Shown: in pieces, positions 4,414 to 21,149 of the stretch | Layout: each line of letters opens with the position of its first letter | How positions within the stretch are numbered: position 1 is the first letter of the stretch | DNA from: a virus | Virus record (IMG/VR): IMGVR_UViG_3300018876_000087 | Coordinates: 1 to 26,158 of that record | Direction: 5' to 3' (one strand) | DNA length: 26,158 nucleotides | Program-made: the position numbers and the translations under genes | The notes under the pieces: model-generated | What the model was told of the DNA's origin: nothing | Seen by the model: the letters and a program-made list of their open reading frames with translations, nothing else | The model's database searches: none

Positions 4414-5708
4414 TAATCGTTTCTTGCTTGTAGATCAAAATCAAATCCTGCGGTCAACACAGTAGTTCCTGTACCAAGAGTTCCAGAATATTCTTTAATA
4501 ATAAATTCAATGTAACCAGATTGCTGTGTTGATTGAGAGCCTGAAATAATATTTACCACGTCACATTTCATTTGAATTTGTATATCTTCGTTCATTTGAA
4601 ACCATGCTGGCGAGGTGTCATCTTGTTCCCATTGAACATTGGTTACACCTGCCTCATTTCCGTTTAAAACAGTAGACCCTTTGATTAAAAATACGGTGTC
4701 GTAACTTCCTACGTTTGCCGGAGAGTTTGGAAAATCCGATGATCTTGTGCTATTGCCCGCCAATCTCGCTGCCTTGGTGCTATTTTCATAAACATTTACC
4801 TGTATCTGATAGTTGTCACCAAATGTTGTAGTATGATTTGCGGCGTCTGTCCATTCGTTAGCAGTAACAGACGGAGAAACACTATCTGTAGGATCGGTTG
4901 TTGCAGAGCCGCCGGGATCAAAAACGGTATTAACTGCAGAAGCATCACCGTTTCTAAACAAAGTTACTGTTGAAGTTACATTTCCACCACTAACCTGACT
5001 TCTGTATCTGTTCGTCATATCTGTCGGCGAAAACGCAAAATTCAGTGCAGGGGTTTGACTATCATCCGTAACATTTAATTGAATTGAGTCAACGCTTGTT
5101 CCAGTGTCACTACCTGTTCTAACGTGCAGATAGAAAGTTTCTGTGCTTCCATCTGTGAATGCGTCTGCCGTAGCATCAATATCGAAAGTACCTGAATTGC
5201 TGGTAATTTCAAATCCTGTACCGCCTGAATTGTATGCTTGCCAGTCAGTAGATGCCTGTGTTGTTCCGGGTGCATCGGTAGTAATGTTCCAGTATAAGAA
5301 AGTTCCATCAGAAACGTTCGTTGTGTTGACTGTGATCGTTTGTGCGGGGTCAGACTCAAGAACAGTAAGCGGATCTGATCCCTGAATCTCATATGTCGGT
5401 GATGCAGCAGCAGCACCATCAACCACCTGAAAATCTAATGTGACTTTTCCGGTGAACCCTGCGTTATCTGCTACTTCTAATGTAAAGTTTCTGGTACCTT
5501 GAGTTCCAGTTTGTTCTTTCACGCCTAAGACTATATCTGTAGTATTACCAGTGCAAGCTTGAGTTCCAGAAGAAACATCGAAATCGTTTGCTACATTTCC
5601 GGCAGTGCCTCCACCACCTGCTCCACGAGATACTACCCGGAAGTGAAACGTAGTTGTTGCTGGGTTGTAGTTCGTAGAATTTACGACATATGTATAATTA
5701 ATTGTCAT
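4413..5708 (-). CDS. Beta-sandwich virion decoration/fibre protein, 431 residues
   Basis: I do not recognise a named gene. The protein is almost entirely beta-rich, Thr/Ser/Asn/Gly-rich and low in lysine, like phage surface proteins. Three parts can be seen. Residues 1-97 form a beta domain containing a RGAGGGG turn. Residues about 100-215 look like the Calx-beta/Ig-like module of marine phage fibres: a LESDPAQTITV opening strand, then LYWNITT, a GTFDI strand, and ETFYLHVRTG. Residues about 215-431 form a C-terminal domain ending in GYIEFIIKEYSGTLGTGTT and FDFDLQARND. This C-terminal part resembles that of the 1423-residue neighbour, so the two may be related by duplication. The start overlaps the neighbour's stop (TAATG) and gp16 starts in its own stop, so it is translated with that operon. 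No signal peptide or membrane segment is seen. Confidence 0.75.
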   Translation of the reverse strand: MTINYTYVVNSTNYNPATTTFHFRVVSRGAGGGGTAGNVANDFDVSSGTQACTGNTTDIVLGVKEQTGTQGTRNFTLEVADNAGFTGKVTLDFQVVDGAAAASPTYEIQGSDPLTVLESDPAQTITVNTTNVSDGTFLYWNITTDAPGTTQASTDWQAYNSGGTGFEITSNSGTFDIDATADAFTDGSTETFYLHVRTGSDTGTSVDSIQLNVTDDSQTPALNFAFSPTDMTNRYRSQVSGGNVTSTVTLFRNGDASAVNTVFDPGGSATTDPTDSVSPSVTANEWTDAANHTTTFGDNYQIQVNVYENSTKAARLAGNSTRSSDFPNSPANVGSYDTVFLIKGSTVLNGNEAGVTNVQWEQDDTSPAWFQMNEDIQIQMKCDVVNIISGSQSTQQSGYIEFIIKEYSGTLGTGTTVLTAGFDFDLQARND

Positions 5709-8700
5709 TATAACCCACCACTAGTGTCAATTTCAACACCGATATAATATACATTGAATGTGTCTTGTACTGTTGAAGTTGCAACATCTCTAATCTCAAA
5801 TTGAATACTATATTGCGGAGTTTCAATACCTGTAGAATTTGTCACGTCAAGTTCCCAAGTTCTGTTCGTGCCCAAACCTAACCACGAACCAAATGTTCCA
5901 GTGAAAGATGAGTTTGAAGAAGTACTGCTACTATTTAGAGTTGCTCTAATTTCGTAATCGCTTGCCAATTCAGAAGTTACGCCAGTTGCCCACGTTCCAT
6001 TATCCACTTCAAGAAAACTATTTGATCCGGGAGTTATATTACCAACACCTTTAATCTTAAAGTCGTTAGCAAACTTAATATAAGCATTTGCCGAAGCAGG
6101 CGACCCACCAAACGACAATGCGTAAGATTGCGAACCTGTACCAGTAGTAGTATTACTAGATGTTGGGAATGAGTACGACCCAGCATTAGACGGATTAATG
6201 GCAATAGTCGCGCTTGCTGCTGTTCCGCCATCGTTGATGCTCGCAGGACCAGTTACCGAATTCAAAGATCCTGCTTCATCCACAAGAGAGAAAGTATCAC
6301 TAGCAGTGTTGCTGTATGTTGCACCAGTTCCATCAACCGTTATTGTTGTAGGTCCTTGATAAACAGGATCACTTGTGCTAGTTCTGTTAACTGTTACGGA
6401 TCCACCACCGCTGCTAAACTGTGCTGCCGTAATTTGTCCACTTGCGTTAACCCTCGTATCACCAGTAATATCCCAATCAAAGTCTTCGTATGTTCCGGTG
6501 TTAGTCAAACTAGCAACAACCGTGAAACTCCATGCGTCTCCTTCGGTAACATTACCAGCGGGTGCCGTAAGAGTGTATGTGATATCTGCTGCACCATCTT
6601 CCAGAGTTAATGTGTCAGTTGCCTGAACCCCTGTTGTTTGTCCTGTAACCGTAAATGTAAGTAAAGGATCATTTTCAAAAGTTCCCGGAGCAGAGGTTGT
6701 GATGTCTATATCAACATATCCCGGAGATGTAAATGTACCAGACGTTGCACTTAATCGTGCATCAGCAGGAGACACAGACCAATCTACATCTTCGCCTACC
6801 GCATCAGTAACACCAAGATCAAGTCTAATTGTAGCACCTTCTACAAGAGAGGTGACACTTGTATTGCTGGTGTTTCTAATAGTAAGAGAGTAGGTTGGCA
6901 AAAGATCTGTAAGATCAAAGGTTACCGTATCTTGAACACCAGAGGATTGTCCTGTAACAGTCAAAGTAATAGTTTGCGGATTGTCTGTTCCTGCATTGAT
7001 AGAAGTTGGAATATTTAAGTTTCCATACGATGAACCATTCCATGTGAACGTGTCTCCTGCGGTGCTGTATCTTCCAGTACCATCATCACTGATAGCAAGG
7101 TCTACATCTTCTTCCACACTGTTCGTGAAATTAAGTCCGACTACAATAGTGTCGCCTTCCACATACGATGTTTGTGAAGTGATAACTTCGTATATTGGTA
7201 CAACATCATTTAACACAACCGTTGTGCTATCAGTTTGACCAGAACTTGCTCCCGTGACACTAACAGATATATTTTCCCCTAATGCATTTTGTATAGCGGG
7301 ATCCAAAGTTGTTGCAATAGTGATATCGTTATAAGCGGGTGAAGTAAAGGTGTAAGCACCAGCAGTGTATCGTCCTGATCCATCATCTGCAACTGTAACG
7401 TTAACATCTTCTGAAACAGGATTAACTACTGCGAGAGACAAGACGATATCGTTGCCTTCGGTAACTGGCGTGTTGGAAGAAACTGTGTATTCTGGAATAA
7501 CATCTGTGATATCTACTGCGAATGATGCAATTTCGTTTGCTGCATCTGTATTACTGTCAGACACTTTGATCGTAAAACTTTCGGTGTTTTCTGTCAGAGC
7601 ATCCAGCACCGCAGCAAGATCCATAGTAGATGTCATGATCATGGTGTCACCGGCAGCAGTAACACTGTTAGCAGTGCTGTCAGTAGTTAAGACTCCTCTG
7701 CTTCCTGAACGAGGAGGAGTACTAGTAAAGTCTGCATCAGCAAGTCCGTCTACCCACCAATAATAATTAGTTCCGGGTACTGAATTCTTATGAGTAAATG
7801 CCCAAGAACCACTCGCAGCACCTTCGGTAATACTAGTAGGACCAGTGATCACTGGATTAGAAACAGCAGCATCGACCATTGTAATTGTACCAGTGCTCTG
7901 TATGCCATCGTGGTTCGTCACTCTAACCGTTGCTTGTTGAGTGCCTCTGTAATATCCATCAACAGTTGTTGCCGACATGGTCAAGTTAGTAGATGCTGCT
8001 GAGAAAGGTTCTCTTCCCGTAAGCGTAGAGATTCTACCATCTAAACTATCAAGAATCTCCCACTGTACGCCATCAGTAGTTAATGTTTCTGTTCCTGAAT
8101 TGTAAAAATAATCGCCATTTGGATTATGCTCACTACCATCTCCGGAGTCTGGTGTTCCAGATATTGTGGAAACATTTATTACAACATCGTCTCCCTCGGT
8201 GATGCTCGTATCCCCTGTAGTATATCGGGGATAGATCGAGGTATCATTAATGGTAACTAGTTGACCTTGCTGTGTAGTATCGCTAGGATTAAGATGAGCA
8301 AGAAGTTCTACCGTGTTTGCATCGCCGTGATAATCTGTGTAAGTCGCAGGTCCAACCAAGAATACTCTAAAGGTTTGTGCCCCTTCTGTGATGTAATCTT
8401 TTTTAATACGAACATTAAATGTACCAGTTCCGCTGCTGATAGTGACTGGTTGTCGATTTGCAAACCCAACTCCGTTTTGAACCCCTGCACTGTTTCCAAA
8501 GTCATTAGTGTGAGCAGTTAAAGTTGCGTCCAATGCAGGATCACTTCCAACGTTAGTTGTTTTGTCTGCGATATACCAGTAGATAGTTCCATCCGGTAGG
8601 TTTATTCCGTCAATGGTTATTGCTTGGTTGCTATCTAATTCATCGACGGAAGTTGTAGTTACGGTATAGTGAACATCGTTGATTGAATAAGTGTTTTCAA

Positions 8701-9979
8701 AAACCTGATTTCTTTGTGGAGTTCTGCACCAATCTGCTATATAAAGTTTGTATTGTTCTATTCTATCGGGTATTGTAATGTCCCCGTCAGTTTCGTCTTG
8801 GAAGAAGTCGTTGGCAATAGTAAATTGTATCTGTCCACTGGTTGGCGTACCATAAACTTTATCTGTGGCAGGGTTTACTTCTACCTCTAAGTCTTGCCAC
8901 CCACCAATGATTCTGAACTGTTCACCGCCAGCATCAGCATCTGCTAATGGTTGCGATAAAGTTAGCGTGTTGGGTGAGGTTGATACTGCGACGATGTATC
9001 CGTTTCTGGGGATATATTCTCCAGTTAATTCTGAACCATCATAGTGTATGATATCATAACCTTCCCAACCAGTAGGATCCTGACCTATGATGATTTGATT
9101 GTTTGCAGCACCGGTTTGATCAGCAACAGCAGTTACAGTGTACTCTACTTTTTGCGGAGGAACTACAGTGAAATCAGCATCTTCTGTGTCTACGTGCTCT
9201 AACCACCACTTGTAAGTTCCGGGATAAATGTTATTCGTAGTTCCTACAGTATAGGTAACTTGTAATCCCTCGGTTGCTGGTTCATTAGAAGGTGTTAAGG
9301 TGACTACAGGAGATGGGAAGTCATCAATTGTAGCAGGTTCTTGACTTGATCCTAATGCTAGGTTTGCTTGCCCCTCTAGCAACACCTCTCCACCCAGATA
9401 CATACCAGCAGGATGAACAAACAACTTAAAAAGTTTTTTCCATTGATTTACAGGAATACCTGCCCTTACAAGAATAGCAAAGGTCTGATATAACTTATCG
9501 TCTGTGAGGAATCTAAGCGACGATGGACCAAGTTTAGATGAGAAAGAGTTAGAATTCTTGTCATCTGCAATTAAAAATACGTTCTCTTTTGTATACAAAA
9601 CTTCTGGGTCGAGTTGGAAAAAAGAACGGAAGAACCATTCAATAGAATATTTTGATCCTTTTGCTCGGAATAAAGTGCTAGAAAAATTTGCTGCTGCACG
9701 TTTATCACCAGACCCTTCGAAGTAACTTCCGCCTAATAACAGTTCGTCTTCAATAAAATTTAGAAGCGTAATATCTGTTTCTGTTATATCACGAGAAGAG
9801 AAAAGATGATTCAACAACTCAGTAGCATCGTACTGATTTTGAAACTCGTAATATCTTTCTAATAGAGATATAAACTTAGGATAAGCAGATGCAAAATATT
9901 CAGGCAACACGTCATCGATATGAACATCTCTGAGGTTCAGTCTGCGTCTTTTCTTGTCTATAAAATTATCGTGTGCCAT
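5708..9979 (-). CDS. Giant virion structural protein with conserved N-terminal domain and tandem Ig/Calx-beta repeats
   Basis: This 1423-residue protein has two clearly different parts. Residues 1-205 are helical, charged and conserved-looking: KKRRRLNLRDVHIDDVLPEY near the start, IEWFFRSFF at 113-121, LTDDKLYQTFAILVRAGIP at 158-176 and HPAGMYLGGEV at 189-199. I recall this type of domain from T4-like marine phage virion proteins; it presumably anchors the protein to the particle. The rest is a chain of beta-sandwich modules with recurring T-E-G or V-E-G openings at about 236, 531, 594, 718, 840, 941, 1047 and 1146. A C-terminal module (about 1320-1423) contains DYEIRATL and IQFEIRDV. ATG 9979 was chosen over an in-frame TTG at 10036, which lies inside gp15. 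It starts 8 bases after the gp15 stop. The role is likely adhesion or display from the neck or tail; no enzyme motif is seen. Confidence 0.82.
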   Translation of the reverse strand: MAHDNFIDKKRRRLNLRDVHIDDVLPEYFASAYPKFISLLERYYEFQNQYDATELLNHLFSSRDITETDITLLNFIEDELLLGGSYFEGSGDKRAAANFSSTLFRAKGSKYSIEWFFRSFFQLDPEVLYTKENVFLIADDKNSNSFSSKLGPSSLRFLTDDKLYQTFAILVRAGIPVNQWKKLFKLFVHPAGMYLGGEVLLEGQANLALGSSQEPATIDDFPSPVVTLTPSNEPATEGLQVTYTVGTTNNIYPGTYKWWLEHVDTEDADFTVVPPQKVEYTVTAVADQTGAANNQIIIGQDPTGWEGYDIIHYDGSELTGEYIPRNGYIVAVSTSPNTLTLSQPLADADAGGEQFRIIGGWQDLEVEVNPATDKVYGTPTSGQIQFTIANDFFQDETDGDITIPDRIEQYKLYIADWCRTPQRNQVFENTYSINDVHYTVTTTSVDELDSNQAITIDGINLPDGTIYWYIADKTTNVGSDPALDATLTAHTNDFGNSAGVQNGVGFANRQPVTISSGTGTFNVRIKKDYITEGAQTFRVFLVGPATYTDYHGDANTVELLAHLNPSDTTQQGQLVTINDTSIYPRYTTGDTSITEGDDVVINVSTISGTPDSGDGSEHNPNGDYFYNSGTETLTTDGVQWEILDSLDGRISTLTGREPFSAASTNLTMSATTVDGYYRGTQQATVRVTNHDGIQSTGTITMVDAAVSNPVITGPTSITEGAASGSWAFTHKNSVPGTNYYWWVDGLADADFTSTPPRSGSRGVLTTDSTANSVTAAGDTMIMTSTMDLAAVLDALTENTESFTIKVSDSNTDAANEIASFAVDITDVIPEYTVSSNTPVTEGNDIVLSLAVVNPVSEDVNVTVADDGSGRYTAGAYTFTSPAYNDITIATTLDPAIQNALGENISVSVTGASSGQTDSTTVVLNDVVPIYEVITSQTSYVEGDTIVVGLNFTNSVEEDVDLAISDDGTGRYSTAGDTFTWNGSSYGNLNIPTSINAGTDNPQTITLTVTGQSSGVQDTVTFDLTDLLPTYSLTIRNTSNTSVTSLVEGATIRLDLGVTDAVGEDVDWSVSPADARLSATSGTFTSPGYVDIDITTSAPGTFENDPLLTFTVTGQTTGVQATDTLTLEDGAADITYTLTAPAGNVTEGDAWSFTVVASLTNTGTYEDFDWDITGDTRVNASGQITAAQFSSGGGSVTVNRTSTSDPVYQGPTTITVDGTGATYSNTASDTFSLVDEAGSLNSVTGPASINDGGTAASATIAINPSNAGSYSFPTSSNTTTGTGSQSYALSFGGSPASANAYIKFANDFKIKGVGNITPGSNSFLEVDNGTWATGVTSELASDYEIRATLNSSSTSSNSSFTGTFGSWLGLGTNRTWELDVTNSTGIETPQYSIQFEIRDVATSTVQDTFNVYYIGVEIDTSGGL
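6278..7495 (-). repeat. Four tandem Ig/Calx-beta-like repeats of about 100 residues
   Basis: Within the 1423-residue protein, residues about 829-1234 hold four successive units. Each opens with PxYxV/L, then V-E-G or T-E-G followed by a hydrophobic strand, then EDVD or a similar acidic pair (EDVN, EDVD, EDVD, EDFD). The first two share DDGSGRY and DDGTGRY, and three units end in TVTG-type strands with S/T-S/T-G and a D-T pair. The E-G pairs are spaced about 100, 106 and 99 residues apart. The similarity is clear in protein but weak in DNA, so these are old duplications. Confidence 0.8.
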
Positions 9980-9987
9980 AGTTCTAT

Positions 9988-12900
9988 TTAGGGTGCCGCC
10001 TTCAGCACCGGAGCAGTTGGTGAATTGGTGACCCAAACAAGAAGGTATTGATTATTGCCCCAATTGACATAATCGCCCGTAGAAGTTCCTGTTGCCTGTC
10101 CCGTGTTGCCTCGTTGTTGAACTTCATTTGACCCTAATGCGCTATTACCGTAGAGTCGGAGTTGATTACTTCTAAACACGAAACCTGATTGGTCATTCGT
10201 ATTAAAGTCATCACCAACATCTTCATCGTGCCAGAAAGTTCTTATTCCAGATTTTATTGTTTCCCGACCTAAATTTTCAGCATTAGTTAGATTGGTTCCT
10301 GAAATATTTGGTTCAGTGGTTATTGCCGCCTTTGTAAATACAACACCATTGGTTTCTCTCTGTGAAGGTAGTGTATTTTGCGGAGAACCAGACGGGTCAA
10401 CAATATCAAATGTTATGTATGTTGCATCGTTCATTACTTGCGCATAGTCTGCATCTCTCATAATCGAATCTAATGTCATGGTTAGACCATCAGCCGGTAT
10501 TCCAAAATCTTGTTTGGTACGTGTAGCAGATTCGTAAGTAGTGTCGACATTGAGGATTGCCACGCACCATCCAAACTCTGGATCGTAAGTGTGTGATCCG
10601 GAAAAGGTAATCTCGTCCGTAAAAGATTGATTTTCTAAAACTCTACCCTGATTGCTGGCAAACTCGTTGTTACCGATTTTAACAAAGTTTCCGTTTGTCG
10701 ATATTTGTGCAGGACTACCTGCATTATAATTACTTGAATTAGTAACCTGTCCATAAAAATAACTCTGACTCGTCGTGCCAAACCCGAGATAGTCATTTAC
10801 TTCCCCACGGAAATATCCATTCAAAGTCGCAATTGTATCAGAAGCGAGCGTCCTGTCAAAACCAACATCAACGGTATCGTCCAAGGCGAACTTATAAATT
10901 GTGCCACGATTTTCGCCAGACCAAGATTCCAATGGTGCCGCAACGTATAACTCTGTGCTGTTCGGATTGACTGCCACATATCTTCCAAAATCAATATCAG
11001 TTTCACCGCTCTGTCCAGTAAGAGTTATAAGGTGACTAAACTGCACAATCATAGATATCTGTAAGTTATAAGTTCCATCTCCTGTGTATCCGGGTATAGC
11101 AGGCGAACCACCGGGTTCTGATCCGTCAATAGTCCAATTCACAGTACGAGTTCGGACAGACGTTGGATACTGCGGTACGGCAGGGAACCCAAATGCTTGC
11201 ATGTCACGAGCAAGTCTGCAAATAATATATTCATCGGTATCTTTGTTTCGAATCCAAGCAATACCACCATTCGCACCATACCATGTGTTGGTAGCACTCC
11301 TACGCAAAGTTCCGCTGTACTCACCAACTGACATATTTTCAGGATCAGTTCGACCTGAAATTAGATCGGGTGCTTGTGCTCCAAGATCGATCTGAGCACC
11401 ACTTGCTGAAACCGCGAAAGAACCATCGATCCTTGGCGTAGTTGGTGTTGCCCCCAAACTTCCAAACCTTCCGTTTAATGGATCTGCGTATCTCCAAACC
11501 GAAACACGATTAAGATTAGGAACTCCTAGAAAAATATGATTGTTAGACATTGCTACACTAGTAGGACCATTTGTAAAAGTATTCGTTGGATCGTAATGTG
11601 AATTCCAAATACTAGCAGTATTATCGTGCGTATCTAAGAAATTATTAAACTGTAAAGTGCCGCCAGAAACTTTTATTACTCTACCGGCTGATGATCTACC
11701 CGGAAGAGCAACAACATAATCTTCAGCATAGGGCGAAGATGCTACAGAAGTTCCGACATAATTGTTAGTTGATCCTCCGTAATCTTTAGTATAGATTAAA
11801 CTATACGGAGAAGATCTATCATAAAAATAAATTATGCCACCACTAGCACTTCCTGCTCTTGGGTGTGTGATACCAATATAATTTTCCGTAAAGAACAATT
11901 CGAAACCAAACCTAGCATTTCCAGTATCGTCCCACACATTAAGAAGGTTGCCAGAAGTGTCAAACAAATACACAGTTGCTTGTCCATTTGAGGTATTTAA
12001 TGCACTTACCAAAACCTGACTACCTTCTATTGCAACTGCTCTACCAAAGTTTGCTGTTTGAACGCCTCCTGACGGCACGAGTTCGACTGTTGTTCCATCT
12101 GCAATAGTTCTAAGATACGCCGAGTCATTTCCGGGTTCACCGATAACTGCATATGTGTCGCTAGTATCAATGGCATATCCAAAGTCACCGTTGTTTGTTG
12201 GTGTCGATGCCTGATATGTTGCTGGAGGATATGTGTCAAGAATGTCGAATGTATCTGACTCAGTAACACCTGCTGCAGCATCATTAATAGTAAACGTGCT
12301 TGTAACGGTGCCTTGTTCACCAGCAGGTTGACCAATTACAATGTCAACCGTCTTAGTAAGAGCATCCATTACAACCGAACCTGAAGTAGTTGATATTCTA
12401 CCGTTGGTGTTATTATCACCAGTAATCGTGTAAGTAACTGTCTGGTTGATTGCATAGTTACTAGTGATCGTTGCCTGTATAGTTTCATCTTCAATTGCAT
12501 TAGGCACAGATACCGTGTATGAGTAACCCTCAAGAACTGTAATAGTAACCTCACCAACTTCAGAAGAGTTCTCTGCTCCCTCCGGAACAGCACGATACTC
12601 AAAGGTAACTACGCCCGTAAATGCTGCGCTTGGTGGAGTGTAACTGAATGTACCTGCTAATGAGTCAACAATTGCAACGGTTCCTTGCGCAGGTTGATTC
12701 TCCACAGTGTGAGTTACCGTTCCTGTAGATTCCCATTCATCATTAGTCGAAACATCAAAAGTGAACGCACTACCATCCTGATTGTAATAAGTAAACGTGT
12801 CATCGATAGCATCGTCTACACCGGGCAATCCAGAAGCACGAACCTGAACAGTAACACTTTCTGTAACATTCTGTCCTACATCAACACCAATGATGAAACT

Positions 12901-13797
12901 ATCTGCTCCATAAGCATCTGAGTTTGGAGTGTATGTCCATTTACCATCAGAGTCAACTACAGCAGTACCAAACTCTGGTTGAGTCAAGATGCTGTAACCT
13001 TCAATATCATTTAGGGTGTTGACCAATGAAATTGTATTGGTAGCAGTTGAACCAGCATCTTCAGCAATACTAGAAAGTTCTGCACTGTCGCCACTTAGAA
13101 TATTACTTTCTACCTTACAAAATGCAAGCAAACCGCCGGTATCGAAATCTAACAAACTCGTCTCCGCTGTTCTAATAATAGAAGAAGCACTTTCTACGAG
13201 TTTATACAAATTAAGTTTCATTTCAAAATCTAATGTGTATATAATCGTTCTTCTAGCCTCTAATGCTGCTTCATAATCATCTTGCATCACAACGCCATCA
13301 AGTCTGATGGGGGTGTCTTCTTGTAAATCAAAACCTTCTAGAGGTTTGACTGCAACCGTATACTGTGGTGTAAAGTACGGTAAGATTTGTTCTACGATTT
13401 GTAATGCATCGTCTTGACTTCTTGCGTATACATTTAACTGAAAGGTTAGGTTATATGGAACAGGAGTGTATATCTGCCTAGCATTCTCTCCTGCTTGAGG
13501 TATAACTCTTTTGTTAACTTTTGATAATTGTCTTTGTGCATCGTATTGAATCGCAAGAATCTCGAACGACATTCTAGGTAGTTTAATAGCAATCTGTCTT
13601 TCTTGTTGGTCCCCGGCATCCATTGCTTGGATACGATCAATAAAGTCTCTTCGAGGTGCATAAGACAAAGGCACTTTAGTTTGATTAATAGTTTCCCCTG
13701 CCGCATTGTGTCTAACGACATAAATGTTATTGAACAAAGAACCAAAGACAGCAACTGCTTTTCTGATTCTTTCGTGATAAAACCAATTACCTAACAT
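9988..13797 (-). CDS. gp15: gp15 tail terminator/sheath stabiliser fused to a large beta-rich extension
   Basis: Residues 1 to about 215 match T4 gp15 (272 residues), the hexamer that caps the tail tube and sheath and docks to the neck: NWFYHERIRKAVAVFGSLFN at 4-23, VPLSYAPRRDF at 42-52, LPRMSFEI at 73-80 and ALQIVEQILPYFTPQY at 131-146, close to the IVEQILPYF segment of T4. The frame then continues for about 1050 residues. There are two cadherin/VCBS-like domains (about 225-423, with DGKWTYTPNSDAYG and AGTFSYTPPSAAF), a Calx-beta-like domain (424-520), a beta-propeller (about 528-970) with at least six FG-GAP-like blades and an inserted segment (about 780-935), and an unrecognised C-terminal domain (980-1269). 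The start overlaps the gp14 stop (TAATG). The fusion is unusual for gp15. A sequencing artefact is unlikely because one open frame spans 3.8 kb. Confidence 0.88.
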   Translation of the reverse strand: MLGNWFYHERIRKAVAVFGSLFNNIYVVRHNAAGETINQTKVPLSYAPRRDFIDRIQAMDAGDQQERQIAIKLPRMSFEILAIQYDAQRQLSKVNKRVIPQAGENARQIYTPVPYNLTFQLNVYARSQDDALQIVEQILPYFTPQYTVAVKPLEGFDLQEDTPIRLDGVVMQDDYEAALEARRTIIYTLDFEMKLNLYKLVESASSIIRTAETSLLDFDTGGLLAFCKVESNILSGDSAELSSIAEDAGSTATNTISLVNTLNDIEGYSILTQPEFGTAVVDSDGKWTYTPNSDAYGADSFIIGVDVGQNVTESVTVQVRASGLPGVDDAIDDTFTYYNQDGSAFTFDVSTNDEWESTGTVTHTVENQPAQGTVAIVDSLAGTFSYTPPSAAFTGVVTFEYRAVPEGAENSSEVGEVTITVLEGYSYTVSVPNAIEDETIQATITSNYAINQTVTYTITGDNNTNGRISTTSGSVVMDALTKTVDIVIGQPAGEQGTVTSTFTINDAAAGVTESDTFDILDTYPPATYQASTPTNNGDFGYAIDTSDTYAVIGEPGNDSAYLRTIADGTTVELVPSGGVQTANFGRAVAIEGSQVLVSALNTSNGQATVYLFDTSGNLLNVWDDTGNARFGFELFFTENYIGITHPRAGSASGGIIYFYDRSSPYSLIYTKDYGGSTNNYVGTSVASSPYAEDYVVALPGRSSAGRVIKVSGGTLQFNNFLDTHDNTASIWNSHYDPTNTFTNGPTSVAMSNNHIFLGVPNLNRVSVWRYADPLNGRFGSLGATPTTPRIDGSFAVSASGAQIDLGAQAPDLISGRTDPENMSVGEYSGTLRRSATNTWYGANGGIAWIRNKDTDEYIICRLARDMQAFGFPAVPQYPTSVRTRTVNWTIDGSEPGGSPAIPGYTGDGTYNLQISMIVQFSHLITLTGQSGETDIDFGRYVAVNPNSTELYVAAPLESWSGENRGTIYKFALDDTVDVGFDRTLASDTIATLNGYFRGEVNDYLGFGTTSQSYFYGQVTNSSNYNAGSPAQISTNGNFVKIGNNEFASNQGRVLENQSFTDEITFSGSHTYDPEFGWCVAILNVDTTYESATRTKQDFGIPADGLTMTLDSIMRDADYAQVMNDATYITFDIVDPSGSPQNTLPSQRETNGVVFTKAAITTEPNISGTNLTNAENLGRETIKSGIRTFWHDEDVGDDFNTNDQSGFVFRSNQLRLYGNSALGSNEVQQRGNTGQATGTSTGDYVNWGNNQYLLVWVTNSPTAPVLKAAP
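10888..12216 (-). other. Beta-propeller (FG-GAP-like) region within the gp15 fusion
   Basis: Repeated blades follow the pattern F-G-x-x-V/I-A, a short gap, a hydrophobic strand ending near a Pro, then G-x-x-Y-x-F/Y. Examples are DFGYAIDTSDTYAVIGEP, NFGRAVAIEGSQVLVSA, RFGFELFFTENYIGITHP and DFGRYVAVNPNSTELYVAAP. Between the fifth and last visible blades about 150 residues are inserted that do not follow the pattern. Such propellers often bind protein or sugar ligands; which ligand cannot be told here. Confidence 0.6.
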
Positions 13798-14699
13798 TAT
13801 GGATCACCAAACGGGTTGCTTTCTGAGAAATCTAATATACCATCTGCTACAGTTTCAAAAGTGTCGTTCTGTTCTACTGTCATTTCTACTTCACCAACAG
13901 AGACCGGTATTCCTGCTGCGTTACTCTCCTGACCTATGACGCTAACAGTGGTCGCAAAAGAATGAAACTTACCATCAGTCGATGATATGTTGGTGACCTG
14001 AAGAACTCTTGCGCTTTGATTAGTGGCATCGTAAGAAACCACCTCTGCACTCAACACATAATCATCAAAGGTTTGTTTAACAACTTCACCTACCACATAA
14101 GACCCTTGCTCGTTCATAAATTCTGTAGTCACAACATTATCGAATGTTAACTGATATTTATGTCCAAATACTTCGACGTTATCTATCTCTTCAATATCCG
14201 TATCAAAATCCTCGCCACTGTACTCAAACAGTTCACATGATAATCTGAACACGGGAAGATTCTTTAACTGATAGAATGGTGTTTCGTCAAATACTTTTGT
14301 AATTTCGAAAATAGATCCAGAGAGTTGTAAGAAAATAAGGTCGCCTTCTCTTGGACGATAAAACGGTTTGTCCGTATCCGCTTCGTAAGGAGCAATCAGT
14401 TCATTCCATCGTCTACGTGCGACAATAAAGGTTGCTTGGTCTCTAATCTCTACACCGAACTTAGAGAACAAGTCACCCTCGCCATCGAAACCCTCAACAT
14501 TTTCGATATACATTTCAATTTTGTATGCGTCATCAAATACCGCAGAAGTCTCATCTCCAAAGATAGTATCTTTGTTTACTGAGTCGCGGGGAAGATAATA
14601 AACATCCTGCCCGTACATTTTTAAGGATTCAACAATGATATCCTCGTACAGGAGTTGTTCTGATCTGGCACCTTGTGCAAAATACTTGTTAGTTGCCAT
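13797..14699 (-). CDS. gp14: Neck protein gp14 (head completion)
   Basis: This 300-residue protein (T4 gp14 has 256) follows gp13 and precedes gp15 as in T4. Its N-terminus is typical of marine T4-like gp14: NKYFAQGARSEQLLYEDIIV (residues 4-23), then DVYYLPR, followed by FIVARRRWNELI, FYRPREGDLIFL and FDETPFYQLKNLPVFRL in the central beta-rich domain. gp14 hexamers, with gp13, close the head after packaging and form the docking surface for the tail capped by gp15. The start has GTAGGATAACCA upstream, placing AGGA about six bases before the ATG, and the gap from gp13 is three bases. No frameshift or missing segment is apparent. Confidence 0.9.
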   Translation of the reverse strand: MATNKYFAQGARSEQLLYEDIIVESLKMYGQDVYYLPRDSVNKDTIFGDETSAVFDDAYKIEMYIENVEGFDGEGDLFSKFGVEIRDQATFIVARRRWNELIAPYEADTDKPFYRPREGDLIFLQLSGSIFEITKVFDETPFYQLKNLPVFRLSCELFEYSGEDFDTDIEEIDNVEVFGHKYQLTFDNVVTTEFMNEQGSYVVGEVVKQTFDDYVLSAEVVSYDATNQSARVLQVTNISSTDGKFHSFATTVSVIGQESNAAGIPVSVGEVEMTVEQNDTFETVADGILDFSESNPFGDP

Positions 14700-14702
14700 T
14701 GG

Positions 14703-15467
14703 TTATCCTACAAAGAAGTCTGGTGGTAACTCCTGCTCCAGTCTTACTTTCTCTTCTAACCTTTCGAGTTCCGCTGTAGCATCTTCATATAGTTGTCTCC
14801 CGCTAATAGTTACACCACCGGGAAGTTGCATCCCTTCAAACTTAGACATGTTCATACCCCACTGCTGCTTAATCAAAGCAGTTGTGTAATTCTTCAAAAA
14901 CATATCATCATAAACACTGGTATGTGTTTCGGGATCGATTGCTTGGTATACTTCTGCTACAACATAATCCCCGACTGCTAAGTCTGCGCCTCCACCTTCG
15001 TTATAGAATTCACCAAAGATATACAGTCTCCCTTGTCTACGAGAGAAAGTTGTTTTAGGGGTACCACTTAAAAGCATGTCTAAGAAATCTAGGTATTGTT
15101 CGAATTGAAAATAATATGACATGCCACCAGAGAAGTTCATGAAGTCGCCCAGACTGTTCAGCATCATTTGATATCGAACATCAAACATGTTCACCGTACT
15201 GAAAGTAGGATTGATAGGAAACAATTGAGATACAAATAAAATATCATCCGATATAGGAATGTACCCGTTTGCTTTATCGTCAGCAGTAATAAGATGTTTC
15301 AGGTATGTTCTAAACTTGGCGTCCGAATGATACTCACGATATACCTGTATCGCATCATCAACTTTGTCTTCGATCTGGTCTTCATCCACATTTATTTCGA
15401 TCACGGGATCGCCCAACCTACGCAGGCAGTAATCGATCAAAGATTGTCTAGAGTTTGGGATTGCCAT
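14703..15467 (-). CDS. gp13: Neck protein gp13 (head completion)
   Basis: This 254-residue protein (T4 gp13 has 309) is recognisable as the T4-type neck protein. It has a helical N-terminus SRQSLIDYCLRRLGDPVIEI (residues 6-25), an acidic helix with DQIEDKVDDAIQVYREYHSD, the segment YIPISDDILFVSQLFPI, and a C-terminal helical part with ALIKQQWGMNMSKFEGMQLP. gp13 binds the portal after packaging and, with gp14, closes the head and prepares it for tail attachment. The ATG at 15467 has AAAGGT seven bases upstream, and an exact late promoter starts only 19 bases before the ATG, so the leader is very short. It is the first gene of the transcription unit that includes gp14, gp15, two decoration proteins and the terminases. 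Confidence 0.92.
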   Translation of the reverse strand: MAIPNSRQSLIDYCLRRLGDPVIEINVDEDQIEDKVDDAIQVYREYHSDAKFRTYLKHLITADDKANGYIPISDDILFVSQLFPINPTFSTVNMFDVRYQMMLNSLGDFMNFSGGMSYYFQFEQYLDFLDMLLSGTPKTTFSRRQGRLYIFGEFYNEGGGADLAVGDYVVAEVYQAIDPETHTSVYDDMFLKNYTTALIKQQWGMNMSKFEGMQLPGGVTISGRQLYEDATAELERLEEKVRLEQELPPDFFVG

Positions 15468-15485: not shown

Positions 15486-15493
15486 TATTTATA
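15486..15493 (-). promoter_or_regulatory. T4-type late promoter for the gp13-gp17 unit
   Basis: An exact TATAAATA on the minus strand lies 19 bases before the gp13 ATG, with AAAAGGT between. The TAA stop codon of the upstream 1886-residue fibre gene (15491-15489) is part of the promoter box itself. Transcription would start roughly 10-13 bases before the ATG, leaving just enough leader for the ribosome binding site. Confidence 0.8.
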
Positions 15494-18400
15494 CGTTACC
15501 CCAGAGGACTGCACCTGCAGAATCGTATATTACCAAAGTTCTGTTGCTGGCATCCTGAAGTTTAACGCCAGTGTCGAGTTTGAGTTTTTCAGTGTCAGTA
15601 ACCAAAACCTCACCAGCACTATCGATCTTAACCCTCGTTCCAGCAGCACCAAAATCGTTACCAGCAACCCTAAGTTCCATTCTGGCAGTTTCACTGCCTG
15701 CAGTTCTTTCTGTGAATACAGTTCGAATCTCTGCGTATTCGTACTCTTCAGTCGCACTAGTGCTGTTACCTGAAGTGAACAAAAGTTTACTAGCGGTAGC
15801 AGCACCATTTGTTCTGTTATCCAGTTTAAAATCTGTGGAAGAATAATCTGTAGTGATCGACGCTCCGTTTTGCCCGTCTAGTATCAACTGGTTTGTAACA
15901 GATCCGTCTGCAATAGACTTAACGCCAAATCGCATTTTAGTAAACGAATCACCACTACCGTTGTCAGCACTATCAAAAGAAATGAAATGTGATATCGTGT
16001 TACTTACATCAGTCTTAACATTAATACCAGAGGAAGTGCCGTTCGCTTCGTTATTAATAGTTAAGAAATTCCCCATATTGATACTGTGAGGAGTTGTAAG
16101 AGAGTTATCATCGATTTCCAAATCAATACTTTCGGTATTGCTTGGGTAAGTACTAAACTGGAATTTAGTGGGGAGGTTTCCACTAGAGACTGTATCTTTT
16201 GCTACTACCCTAAGAGAAGCACCAATTTCTTGAGAAGTATTATCAACACCATTCCAAATAATTGAACCAAGTTGATCTCCGTTTTGAATTGGTGACAAAT
16301 CAACTGCACTGTCTCCACGGTTTTTTGCCAGAACAAGATATGCACCGAATTCGTTGTTGCTGTGTCTTGTTAAAGAGACAAGCGATTCGTTTGCTGCGTT
16401 GCCGGAAATTTCAGTAAAACCAGCAGCAGAAGTAAGAGGAGTTAGGGAAACGTTTTCAACAAAGTTTGCTCCAGCACTGAATCGATAACGTGTTACATTG
16501 AGGTTGTCGATATCAAAGAAAGCATCTCTTAGATTAACCCTATCATTGAATGTGGCGAGACCATCAACATTTAATGCTGAATCAAACTGACCTTGTTGTG
16601 CGGTTACCGATATCGGATTCCCTGTACCAGAACTTACACTAATTACAGTTTCGTAATTGTTGGGGAATGACGTGTTAGTTGATCCACCAAAACCACCGCC
16701 TTTTTGAACGCGAAGTTCTTGAATACCAATACCACGATTTGCCAAAATACCACGAGATGTCACATCATCAAAGTTAGTGAGATCTTGAATACTAGTGACA
16801 GTTCTTCTAGACAACTGACCCGTTGATGTGTCAATCGCAACGAGAGTATCCCTGTCGTTAGAGTCTTCAAGACCAGACAACCGGAAGTTGTAGTTAGAAA
16901 ATTCTACGGGGACTCTTGCCGAGTCTGCTGGCAATCCGTTAGAGATTGCACGATCCGTTACAGAGCGGAGCGTGTCTCTTTCGTTTAGTCTGGTAATTAC
17001 TCCTGCCTGTCCTCTCTTGACTCTACCTGCTTCAGCACCGCCAGTCTGAACGAGTAGGAGTTCGTAGTAATCGGCAACTTCTGCTTCGATGTCAGTTTGA
17101 GTGACTAACGGAACACCAGTTGTATTAGTGATGTCATAGTTCATACCACCAGCAAAGGTTGACAGAACGTTCGTTGAGTCGCCGCCTTCTTGTGTTACTG
17201 CCTGCAGAGAGGGAATTTCGAATGCTGATGGTGCAAGAGTTCTAATCGTTACCTGATTACTTGCACTGTCATACATCATTGCATCGGTAGTGTTTATGAC
17301 AGGGAAAGAACCATAAGAATCTGTGATATAAAAATCGTTAGCATTTCTAATGGTCAGTCCGTGCACACCGATAGAAGCAGTTGTACTATCTCCACCTGCT
17401 TCGCCCGTTGTCACTTCTTGCAGATTGGTAGTATCTTTGAAAGCAAAGGCACCAACATCTCTGTACCCTACGCTATCAGCACCGCCTTCTGCGTTGGGCG
17501 AGATGAAGAGTGCCTTACCATCCCCGGCAGGAGCATATGCACCAGTAAACTCACCAATACTAGCAATAAGATTACCAATCTTCAACCCACGTGTGGTCTC
17601 AGCAAAAGCAACCCCACCAATTGTCTGGTTAGAGTTATCTGTAACTTCTTGCAGTGTAAAGAATTCTGTTGCAACGTTTGCTGCAGTTCCGAGAGTTCTT
17701 ACACCTACACTGTCAAACTCTACGCCCGTGTTAGTAGGTTTGAATACCGGAACAACCAAACTAGAACTGAACGGAGCAGCAATCGGTAAAGAAGATCTCT
17801 TGATATAAAGTTGACTTCCGATATTAACATCTTGACCACCGGTAGAGTCTCCGTTGCCTAGAACGAATGCCCACGTGTAATCTTCAGCAGGTTTCGTAGC
17901 ACCTGATTGTAAAGTGACACGGAATGCACTATCTGTTCCACCTGCGTCAGCAACACGGATAACATCAAATGCTCCAGCAGGAGTTCCGGGGTTGTTCAAC
18001 CCAGCAGTGAAACCTGCGTCTAGGTTGATTGGTTGCGTTACATCAATTTGTCTTGTTAACTGATCTGAACCCGTTTCTGCTGCCTGATCTATGGTGAAGT
18101 AGGTTAATGGAGTATGAGCAGTATTTTCTAGCGTTGTAGTTTCAGCACTATCGTTCTGGTATGCTAATACTGTCAGTAAGTCTGGTTTATTTGTAAGTTG
18201 CGTGATAACCAAATTTTGAACAGTAGCTTTACCAGTAACATTAAGTTGAACACCAAGATTTGCCGAGTCACCTTTAAACCCTTTCGCAATGATGGGAGTG
18301 GTTGTAAGGTAATCTACGTCTGTTACTGTTTGTAAATCTGGGTTAGTAAATGCAGATGCTGCAAGTTCTCTTCCTACTACCTTTCCAGTGGGCAGTATCA

Positions 18401-21149
18401 TCAAAGAAGTGTTTTCAGAAGTATTTTCTATGCTGAGACCTGACAAAGTCAGACCTGCTCTTCCTGTAATCGTAGTAGAGTCTAGATCTGTCAAACCTTC
18501 TACAGTTAGATCGTTGGTGACAGTTAAATCACTTTCGACTTTAAGGGAGTGATCAAATACCCATCTGTCTTCGAGGGCAGCATAGAACAAGTTAACGCTA
18601 CTATCTACTCCAGTCTTGAGTGTGATACCACCGCCATTCGCATCAGAAGGTTGCTGTGCACTATCGGCAAGAACAATATTCTTATCATTAACCGTCAATT
18701 CTGTACTGTTAATAATTGTAGTAGCACCATCAACACGTAAGGATCCTAACACCACAAGGTCTTGTACTGTAGCACTATCAGAAACGGTAAGGAAGGTCAG
18801 TGTTGCAGAGTCTGCAGTTAAACCACCAGTTCCTGTCAATATAATGTTTCGTCCAGAAACTGGATCGTTAGTCAATACTTCATCAAGTCCTAACTGGGTA
18901 CCGTCTAAGATATCAGCATCGACTGGTAAGTATTCAACACTATCACCGGAAGGTGTCTGTAAAACCAAAACATTGTAAGTTGTTGCTGTACCAGCAGGTG
19001 GTGCTGTCGTTGATATACCACCGTTAAGATATAATGGAGTCGGCGTAGTGTCAAATCCTGCAGGTCTTGTGGGATCTGTTACCGTTGTTAAAGTATCGAC
19101 TTGTTGTGCTTCTTGAGCAATTGTTATCGTTTCTACTGTTGTACCGTTCAACCCCAAGAAAGTAGTAGAATTGTTTTCGTTGGATTTTACGTTACTGAAC
19201 TCAATGCCATTTCCTGCAGCACCAGCATCTATAGAAGTAGAGTCTAGTGTGGTGAGACCGTCAACATCAAGGTTGTTGAGTACGTTTAAATCACCATCCG
19301 CATCAATTCTTAACCGCTCTAGATTGCTGGTGAAGAACGACATTGGTTTGGCACTGATACCTCTGAAATTTACCGTACCACTTTCAGTTGTAATTTCTAA
19401 TACGGTATTATCACCCGTGTTATCCAGACGTAAAGACACTGGAGTTGTTCGTTCAATCTCCAGTCCTCGTCCACTAAAAAAGGTGGGTGTGCTTGTTCCC
19501 ATACCAAAGTTTGCTTCGGAGTTGGAAATTTCGCCATGAAAAAGTGCACCATTCAGATAGACATCGTCGCCATCGACAACGAGTCTTCCGTTAATTGTGG
19601 TGGAGTCTAATTGTGTAAACCCACTTGAAGTAAAGGTGGGTGGGTTTGTAGCAGTACTGAAAGTTAGATTAGGATTATCAGACAGTTGCCCATCAGCACC
19701 CACATACACAACTGAATTTAAGACAAGATCTTTTACCTTTGCAGAACCAACCTTGATACCTATGTTTGTCGAATCGCCCCTAGAAGCAACAAAGTCTAAT
19801 GTGACCAAACTATCATCGAATGCAATATCAGTAGCATTTCGAATACCGACTACAGCACTGTCATTACTAGTTGCTCGATCCGCAACAACTACAGTATTAG
19901 TTGTCAGTTCGTTTAATGGATCGCCGGGACTATTGTTTCTTAATTTTACTTGTCCACTGAATATTACTGGATTGAGAGTCTCACCTACATCAAGACTTGG
20001 ATCAACATTTGCTCTACCAGCAACAGAGTGCAAAGTTTCGAAAGTATTATCGAGATTAGTGACATCGATATCTAAAACTTTATATTCTTTTGTAACGGAG
20101 TCTTGGAAAACAAGGGGGACGGTTCCAGTGATATTACCAATAACACCAAGTCCCGGTTCTCTGACGAAGAGACGTGGCATCTTGATATCGTCATTGGTGC
20201 TGTCATACAAAGCAAGATCGCTTAAGTTTCTATAACCAATAGAGTCTGCTGTCTGTTGATTTAAACCAACCCCAACGGTATCGACTACCAAAGCACGACG
20301 ATAATCTGTTCTGTAAGTTCCCGCCGCACTAGTTCTATCTTGAATTTCAAATGCTTTTAGAAACTTAGCATTGATACCATCAGGAGTTGATGCACCTTGA
20401 GCAAAAGAACTAGATTGGTCGCCTGATCCTATTGTAAATTGTGTTACTTCTCTTAACGTAGGTGGATCAAATGCGGTGAAATTAAATGCTCGTTTTCCTA
20501 TTCGATATGGGATAGGTGCCGTTGCACTGTCAATAACAAGAAGTTCAATAGAGTTTAAACCTGTGATTCCTGTACCACGAACTTCACCATTACTGGTATT
20601 GATATTGAATACACCAGTAATCTCTAAATCACCATCTATTAATGAATAGGTGTTGTCGGCAATGTACAAAGCATTGTCGGGAGACCCGTTATTATATCCA
20701 TTAATTTGTAAACCGTAGTTATTACTATTATTACCAGTAAGAGGACCATTGGTAATAACAATACCTTCGGTTGTTTCGTTTCCGTTCTCAGTAACAACCT
20801 GTAATGTGATATCTGCTTCGTTGGTAAATGCAAGATCGCCTAACTTACGATACCCAACGCTATCGTCTCCTGCTATAGTAGGATTGGTGTTGAGGATGAG
20901 CGCATAGTCATCTTCTGGACCTGCTTCGTTTAATTTGCCATTATCGAAACCCAAACCACTTAGTTTAGGGTTTTTTGTAAACCCACGGGTTCCGTCAGCG
21001 TTAGAGAAGAATAAACTATTATCGCTGTCGGGATTTCCCGGATTGGGTTCTGCTTGGTCTAGGGAAAGGTATAGGTAGCGGTCTGCATCAAGATCAGCAA
21101 CGCTTTTCCTTACTACCTTACCCGCAAGCGATATAAGTCTCTTAGCCAT
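15489..21149 (-). CDS. Repetitive tail-fibre-like virion protein, 1886 residues
   Basis: This long repetitive protein has the composition and motifs of marine T4-like phage fibres. A motif of the form (Y/I)R-x-L-G-x-x-A-F, followed after 8-15 residues by LQxVT, recurs about seven or eight times: GYRKLGDLAF at 99-108 with LQVVT, IGYRNLSDLAL at 304-314, GRELAASAF at 926-934 with LQTVT, GYRDVGAFAF at 1228-1237 with LQEVT, and IRTLAPSAF at 1302-1310 with LQAVT. A second module type has SLRVDGATTIINSTELTVND and NIVLADS, then GGGITLK (residues 803-845). It ends in LVIYDSAGAVLWG, with no peptidase S74 chaperone at the C-terminus. Its place upstream of gp13 corresponds to the short tail fibre/fibritin position in T4, so it may be a tail or collar fibre. 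It overlaps the preceding small gene by 8 bases. Confidence 0.8.
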   Translation of the reverse strand: MAKRLISLAGKVVRKSVADLDADRYLYLSLDQAEPNPGNPDSDNSLFFSNADGTRGFTKNPKLSGLGFDNGKLNEAGPEDDYALILNTNPTIAGDDSVGYRKLGDLAFTNEADITLQVVTENGNETTEGIVITNGPLTGNNSNNYGLQINGYNNGSPDNALYIADNTYSLIDGDLEITGVFNINTSNGEVRGTGITGLNSIELLVIDSATAPIPYRIGKRAFNFTAFDPPTLREVTQFTIGSGDQSSSFAQGASTPDGINAKFLKAFEIQDRTSAAGTYRTDYRRALVVDTVGVGLNQQTADSIGYRNLSDLALYDSTNDDIKMPRLFVREPGLGVIGNITGTVPLVFQDSVTKEYKVLDIDVTNLDNTFETLHSVAGRANVDPSLDVGETLNPVIFSGQVKLRNNSPGDPLNELTTNTVVVADRATSNDSAVVGIRNATDIAFDDSLVTLDFVASRGDSTNIGIKVGSAKVKDLVLNSVVYVGADGQLSDNPNLTFSTATNPPTFTSSGFTQLDSTTINGRLVVDGDDVYLNGALFHGEISNSEANFGMGTSTPTFFSGRGLEIERTTPVSLRLDNTGDNTVLEITTESGTVNFRGISAKPMSFFTSNLERLRIDADGDLNVLNNLDVDGLTTLDSTSIDAGAAGNGIEFSNVKSNENNSTTFLGLNGTTVETITIAQEAQQVDTLTTVTDPTRPAGFDTTPTPLYLNGGISTTAPPAGTATTYNVLVLQTPSGDSVEYLPVDADILDGTQLGLDEVLTNDPVSGRNIILTGTGGLTADSATLTFLTVSDSATVQDLVVLGSLRVDGATTIINSTELTVNDKNIVLADSAQQPSDANGGGITLKTGVDSSVNLFYAALEDRWVFDHSLKVESDLTVTNDLTVEGLTDLDSTTITGRAGLTLSGLSIENTSENTSLMILPTGKVVGRELAASAFTNPDLQTVTDVDYLTTTPIIAKGFKGDSANLGVQLNVTGKATVQNLVITQLTNKPDLLTVLAYQNDSAETTTLENTAHTPLTYFTIDQAAETGSDQLTRQIDVTQPINLDAGFTAGLNNPGTPAGAFDVIRVADAGGTDSAFRVTLQSGATKPAEDYTWAFVLGNGDSTGGQDVNIGSQLYIKRSSLPIAAPFSSSLVVPVFKPTNTGVEFDSVGVRTLGTAANVATEFFTLQEVTDNSNQTIGGVAFAETTRGLKIGNLIASIGEFTGAYAPAGDGKALFISPNAEGGADSVGYRDVGAFAFKDTTNLQEVTTGEAGGDSTTASIGVHGLTIRNANDFYITDSYGSFPVINTTDAMMYDSASNQVTIRTLAPSAFEIPSLQAVTQEGGDSTNVLSTFAGGMNYDITNTTGVPLVTQTDIEAEVADYYELLLVQTGGAEAGRVKRGQAGVITRLNERDTLRSVTDRAISNGLPADSARVPVEFSNYNFRLSGLEDSNDRDTLVAIDTSTGQLSRRTVTSIQDLTNFDDVTSRGILANRGIGIQELRVQKGGGFGGSTNTSFPNNYETVISVSSGTGNPISVTAQQGQFDSALNVDGLATFNDRVNLRDAFFDIDNLNVTRYRFSAGANFVENVSLTPLTSAAGFTEISGNAANESLVSLTRHSNNEFGAYLVLAKNRGDSAVDLSPIQNGDQLGSIIWNGVDNTSQEIGASLRVVAKDTVSSGNLPTKFQFSTYPSNTESIDLEIDDNSLTTPHSINMGNFLTINNEANGTSSGINVKTDVSNTISHFISFDSADNGSGDSFTKMRFGVKSIADGSVTNQLILDGQNGASITTDYSSTDFKLDNRTNGAATASKLLFTSGNSTSATEEYEYAEIRTVFTERTAGSETARMELRVAGNDFGAAGTRVKIDSAGEVLVTDTEKLKLDTGVKLQDASNRTLVIYDSAGAVLWGNV

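Follow-up and report, generated by a model that had tools for sequence, protein, structure and literature searches.

Adhesion domains fused to phage virion proteins are already known, and immunoglobulin-like (Ig-like) domains have been recorded on tail fibers, baseplate, tail tube and major capsid proteins and on Hoc, a list in which the tail terminator does not appear (PMC9022992, reviewing Fraser et al. 2006). In T4-like phages, the C termini of fibritin (wac) have been swapped, some of them with Ig domains, and an accessory adhesin role has been proposed (PMC3797505). The neck passage proteins of 936 lactococcal phages join about 180 constant N-terminal residues to one of seven alternative C-terminal groups, and one neck carbohydrate-binding module from these phages bound its host (PMC6669499). 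The T4 tail terminator, gp15, forms a hexamer at the top of the tail (PMC3004832) and is a protein of 272 amino acids (aa) with a C-terminal tail of its own. Here we describe a gp15 in which about 1050 residues of modules stand in the place of that tail. It is encoded on a 26,158-base stretch of DNA, referred to below as the window, which is the complete IMG/VR record IMGVR_UViG_3300018876_000087 and comes from a group of uncultured marine bacterial viruses.

The extended gp15 gene lies on the minus strand at 9988 to 13797 and encodes 1269 aa in a single frame from an ATG whose position is secure, since the gp14 stop overlaps it (TAATG). The tail-terminator core (residues 1-214, 13156-13797) matches PF16724 over residues 6-215 (E=7e-66, 222 bits against a cut-off of 25), PHROG_227, tail sheath stabilizer, over residues 1-214 (E=1.5e-70), and, among PDB sequences, the T4 gp15 structures 4huh and 3j2m over residues 4-214 (E=4e-24). 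As in T4, the gene directly follows gp14, and no other gp15 occurs in the related contigs. A sequence-only reading of this DNA had proposed that a core ending near residue 215 runs in one frame into an extension of about 1050 residues and sits at the top of the tail; the profile and PDB matches confirm the former, and the homology with T4 gp15 supports the latter.

All parts of the extension lie on the same strand. Two Ig/cadherin-like domains come first, at residues about 216-323 (12829-13152) and about 324-424 (12526-12828), followed by a third, Calx-beta-like sandwich at residues about 425-523 (12229-12525), an FG-GAP-type repeat region at residues 524-1000 (10798-12228) that is conserved in the related contigs L003 and L015, and a C-terminal domain of no assigned fold at residues 1057-1269 (9991-10629) that sequence comparison found elsewhere only in L086. 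Pfam matches in the extension are to Big_9 in two stretches, one in each Ig/cadherin-like domain (the best at 246-319), to Cadherin_5, and to FG-GAP_2 at 571-612. An AlphaFold2 (AF2) model of residues 1-545 predicts three consecutive beta-sandwiches within about 230-520, with a predicted local distance difference test score (pLDDT) of mostly 75-90; Foldseek matched them to protocadherins, complement and other proteins, which reflects how common the fold is. Thus the cadherin-like domains and the C-terminal domain of the sequence-only reading stand, its beta-propeller comes down to one Pfam repeat plus repeats seen by eye, and a third sandwich has to be added, following the Ig domains and preceding the FG-GAP part. 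The module families themselves are, as had been suggested, typical of adhesion.

Separately assembled contigs contradict a stop, frameshift or chimeric join near 13140-13100. The L002 protein is identical to that of the window over residues about 1-812, across the junction (100%, with one residue differing near the L002 end by BLAST), L086 matches the C-terminal 264 residues at 99.6%, and five further contigs, L003-L007, carry a 1056-aa version in a single frame. Because independent contigs repeat the N-terminal 812 and the C-terminal 264 residues almost identically, the window gp15 is not a chimera. A 1-base deletion is found exactly at the core/extension junction of L011 and is absent from its close relatives. 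The programmed frameshift that this deletion brought to mind was rejected, as the window and its relatives have one open frame and the L011 deletion stands alone.

Comparison with relatives of the window (n=80) places the extension at the top of a ladder of modules. In the window's clade, nearly all members have a gp15 of typically 414-460 aa, made up of the core and two Ig domains with little or nothing beyond, and in L044 and L047 the protein is the core alone (236 aa, no Ig domains). The position after the two Ig domains may be empty or may hold a laminin-type LamG domain (Laminin_G_3 in L008, L012 and others, E=3e-14), DUF285/BspA-like repeats (L016, L022 and L023, E=1.8e-34), or the Calx-beta-like sandwich with FG-GAP repeats (L003-L007, L015 and the window); a further 213 C-terminal residues are present in the window and L086 only. 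A second clade, around Phage C48C1, usually has a gp15 of 251-259 aa. This clade keeps the T4-like tail, which is absent from the window's clade. Conservation of the window core stops near residue 215; in T4, the C-terminal segment that contacts gp14 spans residues 203-245. At 14 loci of the second clade, gp15 continues through a Pro-Glu linker into DUF285, giving proteins of 672-695 aa. The linker varies in length even on identical gp15 cores, the number of Pro-Glu repeats giving totals of 679, 689 and 695 aa in L144, L146 and L147. C48C1 itself has a plain gp15 plus a separate DUF285 gene. In L107 (2952-3752), a 267-aa gp15 ends in a Pro-Glu stump followed by PNFI, which also closes the DUF285 versions, and by its sequence it looks like a form that has lost the module. 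Collar appendages built by fusion, as proposed earlier, are therefore supported insofar as the fusion lies in one frame, but what was fused is not one fixed appendage: it is a conserved two-Ig stalk with an exchangeable terminal cassette, and in the second clade a gp15 of the ordinary kind bears DUF285, joined to it by another linker. Among the loci fetched, 131 open reading frames on other proteins of other viral contigs carry related DUF285 or LamG modules, a few of them being gp15 fragments cut at contig ends, versus 23 gp15 fusions.

Terminal modules are shuffled among phages faster than the gp15 that carries them. At fourfold sites, cores that differ by 0.50-0.79 carry terminal modules that differ by only 0.01-0.20. 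In the LamG pair L254/L256 (core 0.50, module 0.01), the amino acid identity is 100% in the module and 77% in the core; the DUF285 pairs L016/L022 (0.79 vs 0.07) and L106/L143 (0.64 vs 0.12) and the FG-GAP pair of the window and L003 (0.59 vs 0.11-0.20) behave likewise. Between the window and L003-L007, the exchanged tract (approximately residues 600-1056, 10630-12000) has a DNA identity of mostly 86-99%, compared with 65-83% in the gp15 core and Ig domains, and sliding identity rises within the module and falls again at or shortly past the gp15 stop. Close phages can differ by the cassette. L023 and L025 are 98-99% identical on both flanks, with the cassette only in L023, and L016 and L020 differ in the same way between flanks that are 91-96% identical. 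On the gp15 core tree, four changes are required to account for DUF285 in the second clade, a number that stands when only well-supported branches are counted, and all C-terminal states jointly need 13, one of which (L026) is a contig-end artifact. At the level of sequence, these comparisons demonstrate both fusion to gp15 and exchange of cassettes. L023 and L025 show a second clean length difference about 4.1-5.1 kb past the gp15 start, on the downstream side of gp15 and probably in their gene for the wedge-type protein.

Very probably, the extended form acts as the tail terminator, because each of 14 related contigs (19-160 kb, their completeness unproven, the window itself being a 26-kb fragment) has exactly one gp15, because the contigs of 160 and 137 kb have no DUF285 gene other than the extended gp15, and because the core is under purifying selection, the ratio of nonsynonymous to synonymous substitution rates (dN/dS) being 0.04-0.07 where computable. 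The Ig stalk gave 0.07-0.37 in diverged pairs, again where computable. Replacement-rich modules showed no sign of a diversity-generating retroelement, since substitutions are scattered and of all types.

When core and extension were searched separately, as the earlier reading had advised, the core matched 2,141 of 50,697 phage records and the window extension had no tblastn match in any of them, nor did the Ig stalk of L060. Most of the isolates sampled have a gp15 of 228-280 aa, and four have longer ones (337-437 aa) without a recognizable Pfam module, namely P-SSM4, S-SCSM1, Campylobacter F360 and Vibrio 6E35.1a. The last (L323, 889-2202) is a 437-aa gp15 whose tail looks repetitive, with recurring Trp/Arg motifs and no Pfam match, and by its sequence is a long tail of another kind. 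The literature, searched mostly without subscription journals, yielded no description of Ig or adhesin domains on gp15. Compared with known Ig-like virion proteins, the arrangement is similar in that an optional Ig-type domain, here missing from the close relatives L044 and L047, sits at the C terminus of a structural protein; some of those domains are reached by programmed frameshift, which is not required, whereas gp15 reads through in a plain frame and bears further modules on top. Fibritin is likewise located at the neck in T4-like phages and has exchanged C-terminal modules, some of them Ig domains, but it is a separate trimeric coiled-coil fiber whose swaps are reported to be ancient and to have ceased; those on gp15 are recent and affect the terminator itself. 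The 936 neck passage proteins share the plan of a constant N terminus and variable C termini, although they belong to siphophages and come from a dedicated neck gene. What is unusual here is thus the site on the tail terminator and the recency of exchange.

We suggest that the gp15 C terminus is a display site for adhesin-like modules on a T4-type tail terminator. Six copies would ring the top of the sheath, as in T4, so that six beta-sandwich stalks with their terminal modules would project from the neck. The terminal modules, from carbohydrate- or surface-protein-binding families, may attach reversibly to the host's envelope or exopolymer or to particles and keep the virion close to the host until engagement of the baseplate fibers, and frequent cassette replacement would track changes in ligand. 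The most likely role, by analogy, is a reversible hold on the host surface, on host polymer or on particles, with a probability of roughly 0.58, because the modules belong to extracellular binding families and because terminal swapping on a constant base is typical of phage adhesins; surface exposure and ligand binding of gp15 are both inferred. Several observations weigh against this role. Matches to the Ig, FG-GAP, LamG and DUF285 families do not prove adhesion. Neck modules need not recognize hosts, because the terminal carbohydrate-binding module of the A-1(L) neck fiber did not bind its own host (PMC10966104). A terminal module is absent in many relatives and in all isolates examined, and the dN/dS of the terminal modules is higher, at 0.13-0.73, and fits weak constraint or diversification alike. 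In the AF2 model of residues 1-545 the gp15 core was poorly modeled, and residues 525-1269, run with a 3-row alignment, gave a mean pLDDT of 34 and no reliable model. If the modules do bind, these phages would have six capture arms at the end of the tail opposite the usual receptor-binding proteins, and the terminator would join the fibers, baseplate, tail tube, capsid and separate neck proteins as a carrier of adhesion domains. More tentatively, and at a little under even odds, the terminator ring could act generally as a dock for adhesin cassettes passed horizontally between phages. It would then form, at the neck, a second apparatus for capturing hosts or particles, one that is independent of the baseplate fibers and evolves separately by cassette exchange. 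The recent swaps on gp15 contrast with the reportedly ancient ones of fibritin, near-identical phages with and without a cassette offer natural experiments, and modules that match almost exactly on cores that have diverged are a mark of genetic exchange among uncultured marine phages.

A structural collar is unlikely, although it survives better than the other alternatives. In this reading the Ig-like stalks would fold around the neck and strengthen the joint between head and tail, and the terminal modules would be decorative, with no particular ligand. It is kept in consideration because Ig domain 2 is similar to the domain that decorates the collar protein gp13 of Agrobacterium phage Milano (VIA over residues 328-424, Z 11.4, 1.6 A, 26% identity); the collar protein of Agrobacterium phage 7-7-1 (gp118) resembles it as well, and the stalk is conserved while the tip is not. 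The Milano collar links the sheath to the neck and carries no fibers, yet its decorating domain has itself been likened to proteins that interact with glycans (PMC10491603). Moreover, the fold is a common one, phmmer gave no sequence match between gp15 and the Milano or 7-7-1 collar proteins, and those are separate collar proteins in 15-fold rings. A stiffener would also not be expected to show recent swapping of its terminal modules.

Rather improbable is a whisker-like role, in which the extension would help to attach or retain tail fibers and sense conditions as T4 fibritin does. The homology with T4 gp15 puts the extension at the neck, and swapped modules could match swapped fibers. In T4, fibritin is anchored on gp13 (PMC12270204, from which we took the definition of the binding segment), and the window gp13 (14703-15467, minus strand; PHROG_211) is about 55 residues shorter than its T4 counterpart, with alignment gaps covering most of T4 190-239. 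Because this segment is missing, a T4-type collar is unlikely. However, relatives and isolates with a short gp15 also have a gp13 without it, so that no pattern of compensation between gp13 and gp15 emerges, the whole cassette differs between close phages, and the modules resemble ligand-binding families. With fibritin on gp13 in T4 and short-gp15 relatives lacking the segment too, the suggestion that gp15 replaces whiskers is only a loose analogy. With E values allowed up to 0.1, a profile search of the window gp15 found no Fibritin_C match; nine contigs searched for this domain gave none either, but the control genomes were equally silent and that search was not used as evidence.

We regard as very improbable a near-neutral traffic of modules, in which a C-terminal end that tolerates additions gains domains of little effect by recombination. 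The high dN/dS of some modules (up to 0.73), the presence or absence of cassettes in near-identical phages, and the C48C1-type phages, mostly without cassettes, all fit such traffic. They are set against frames that stay open across 200-840 residues in every cassette seen, a dN/dS of 0.13-0.16 for DUF285 on the gp15 of the second clade, and the recurrence of adhesin-like families on two separate gp15 clades. An assembly artifact joining gp15 to an unrelated gene can be practically dismissed, as the one-base gap at the junction of a single relative (L011) is outweighed by the same frame appearing independently in L002, L003-L007 and L086.

The gene lies in a T4-like structural block on the minus strand of the window that also encodes tail tube, sheath, large and small terminase, a wedge-type protein, gp14, gp13, an 1886-aa protein and a fiber protein. 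The order gp13-gp14-gp15 is the T4 neck order, with gp14 at 13797-14699 (minus strand; PF11649, PHROG_460); gp16 is not adjacent and lies two genes further on. The 1886-aa protein (15489-21149, minus strand), directly upstream of gp13, had no Pfam or PHROG match. About 900 bases in the 3' part of its gene are 93-99% identical to L007, compared with 51-79% for the 3' half of gp14 and the gp15 core, and exchange therefore touches that gene too. The wedge-type protein (1423 aa, 5708-9979, minus strand) has a long extension that we read as Calx-beta-like repeats. Wedge-type proteins of relatives contain repeats akin to residues 425-530 of gp15 (BLAST, E about 1e-6), so modules seem to be common to neck and baseplate proteins. 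Further upstream in the block, the fiber protein (21515-25939, minus strand) contains an FG-GAP_2 repeat at 1304-1342, so that a single phage carries FG-GAP-type parts on two of its virion proteins.

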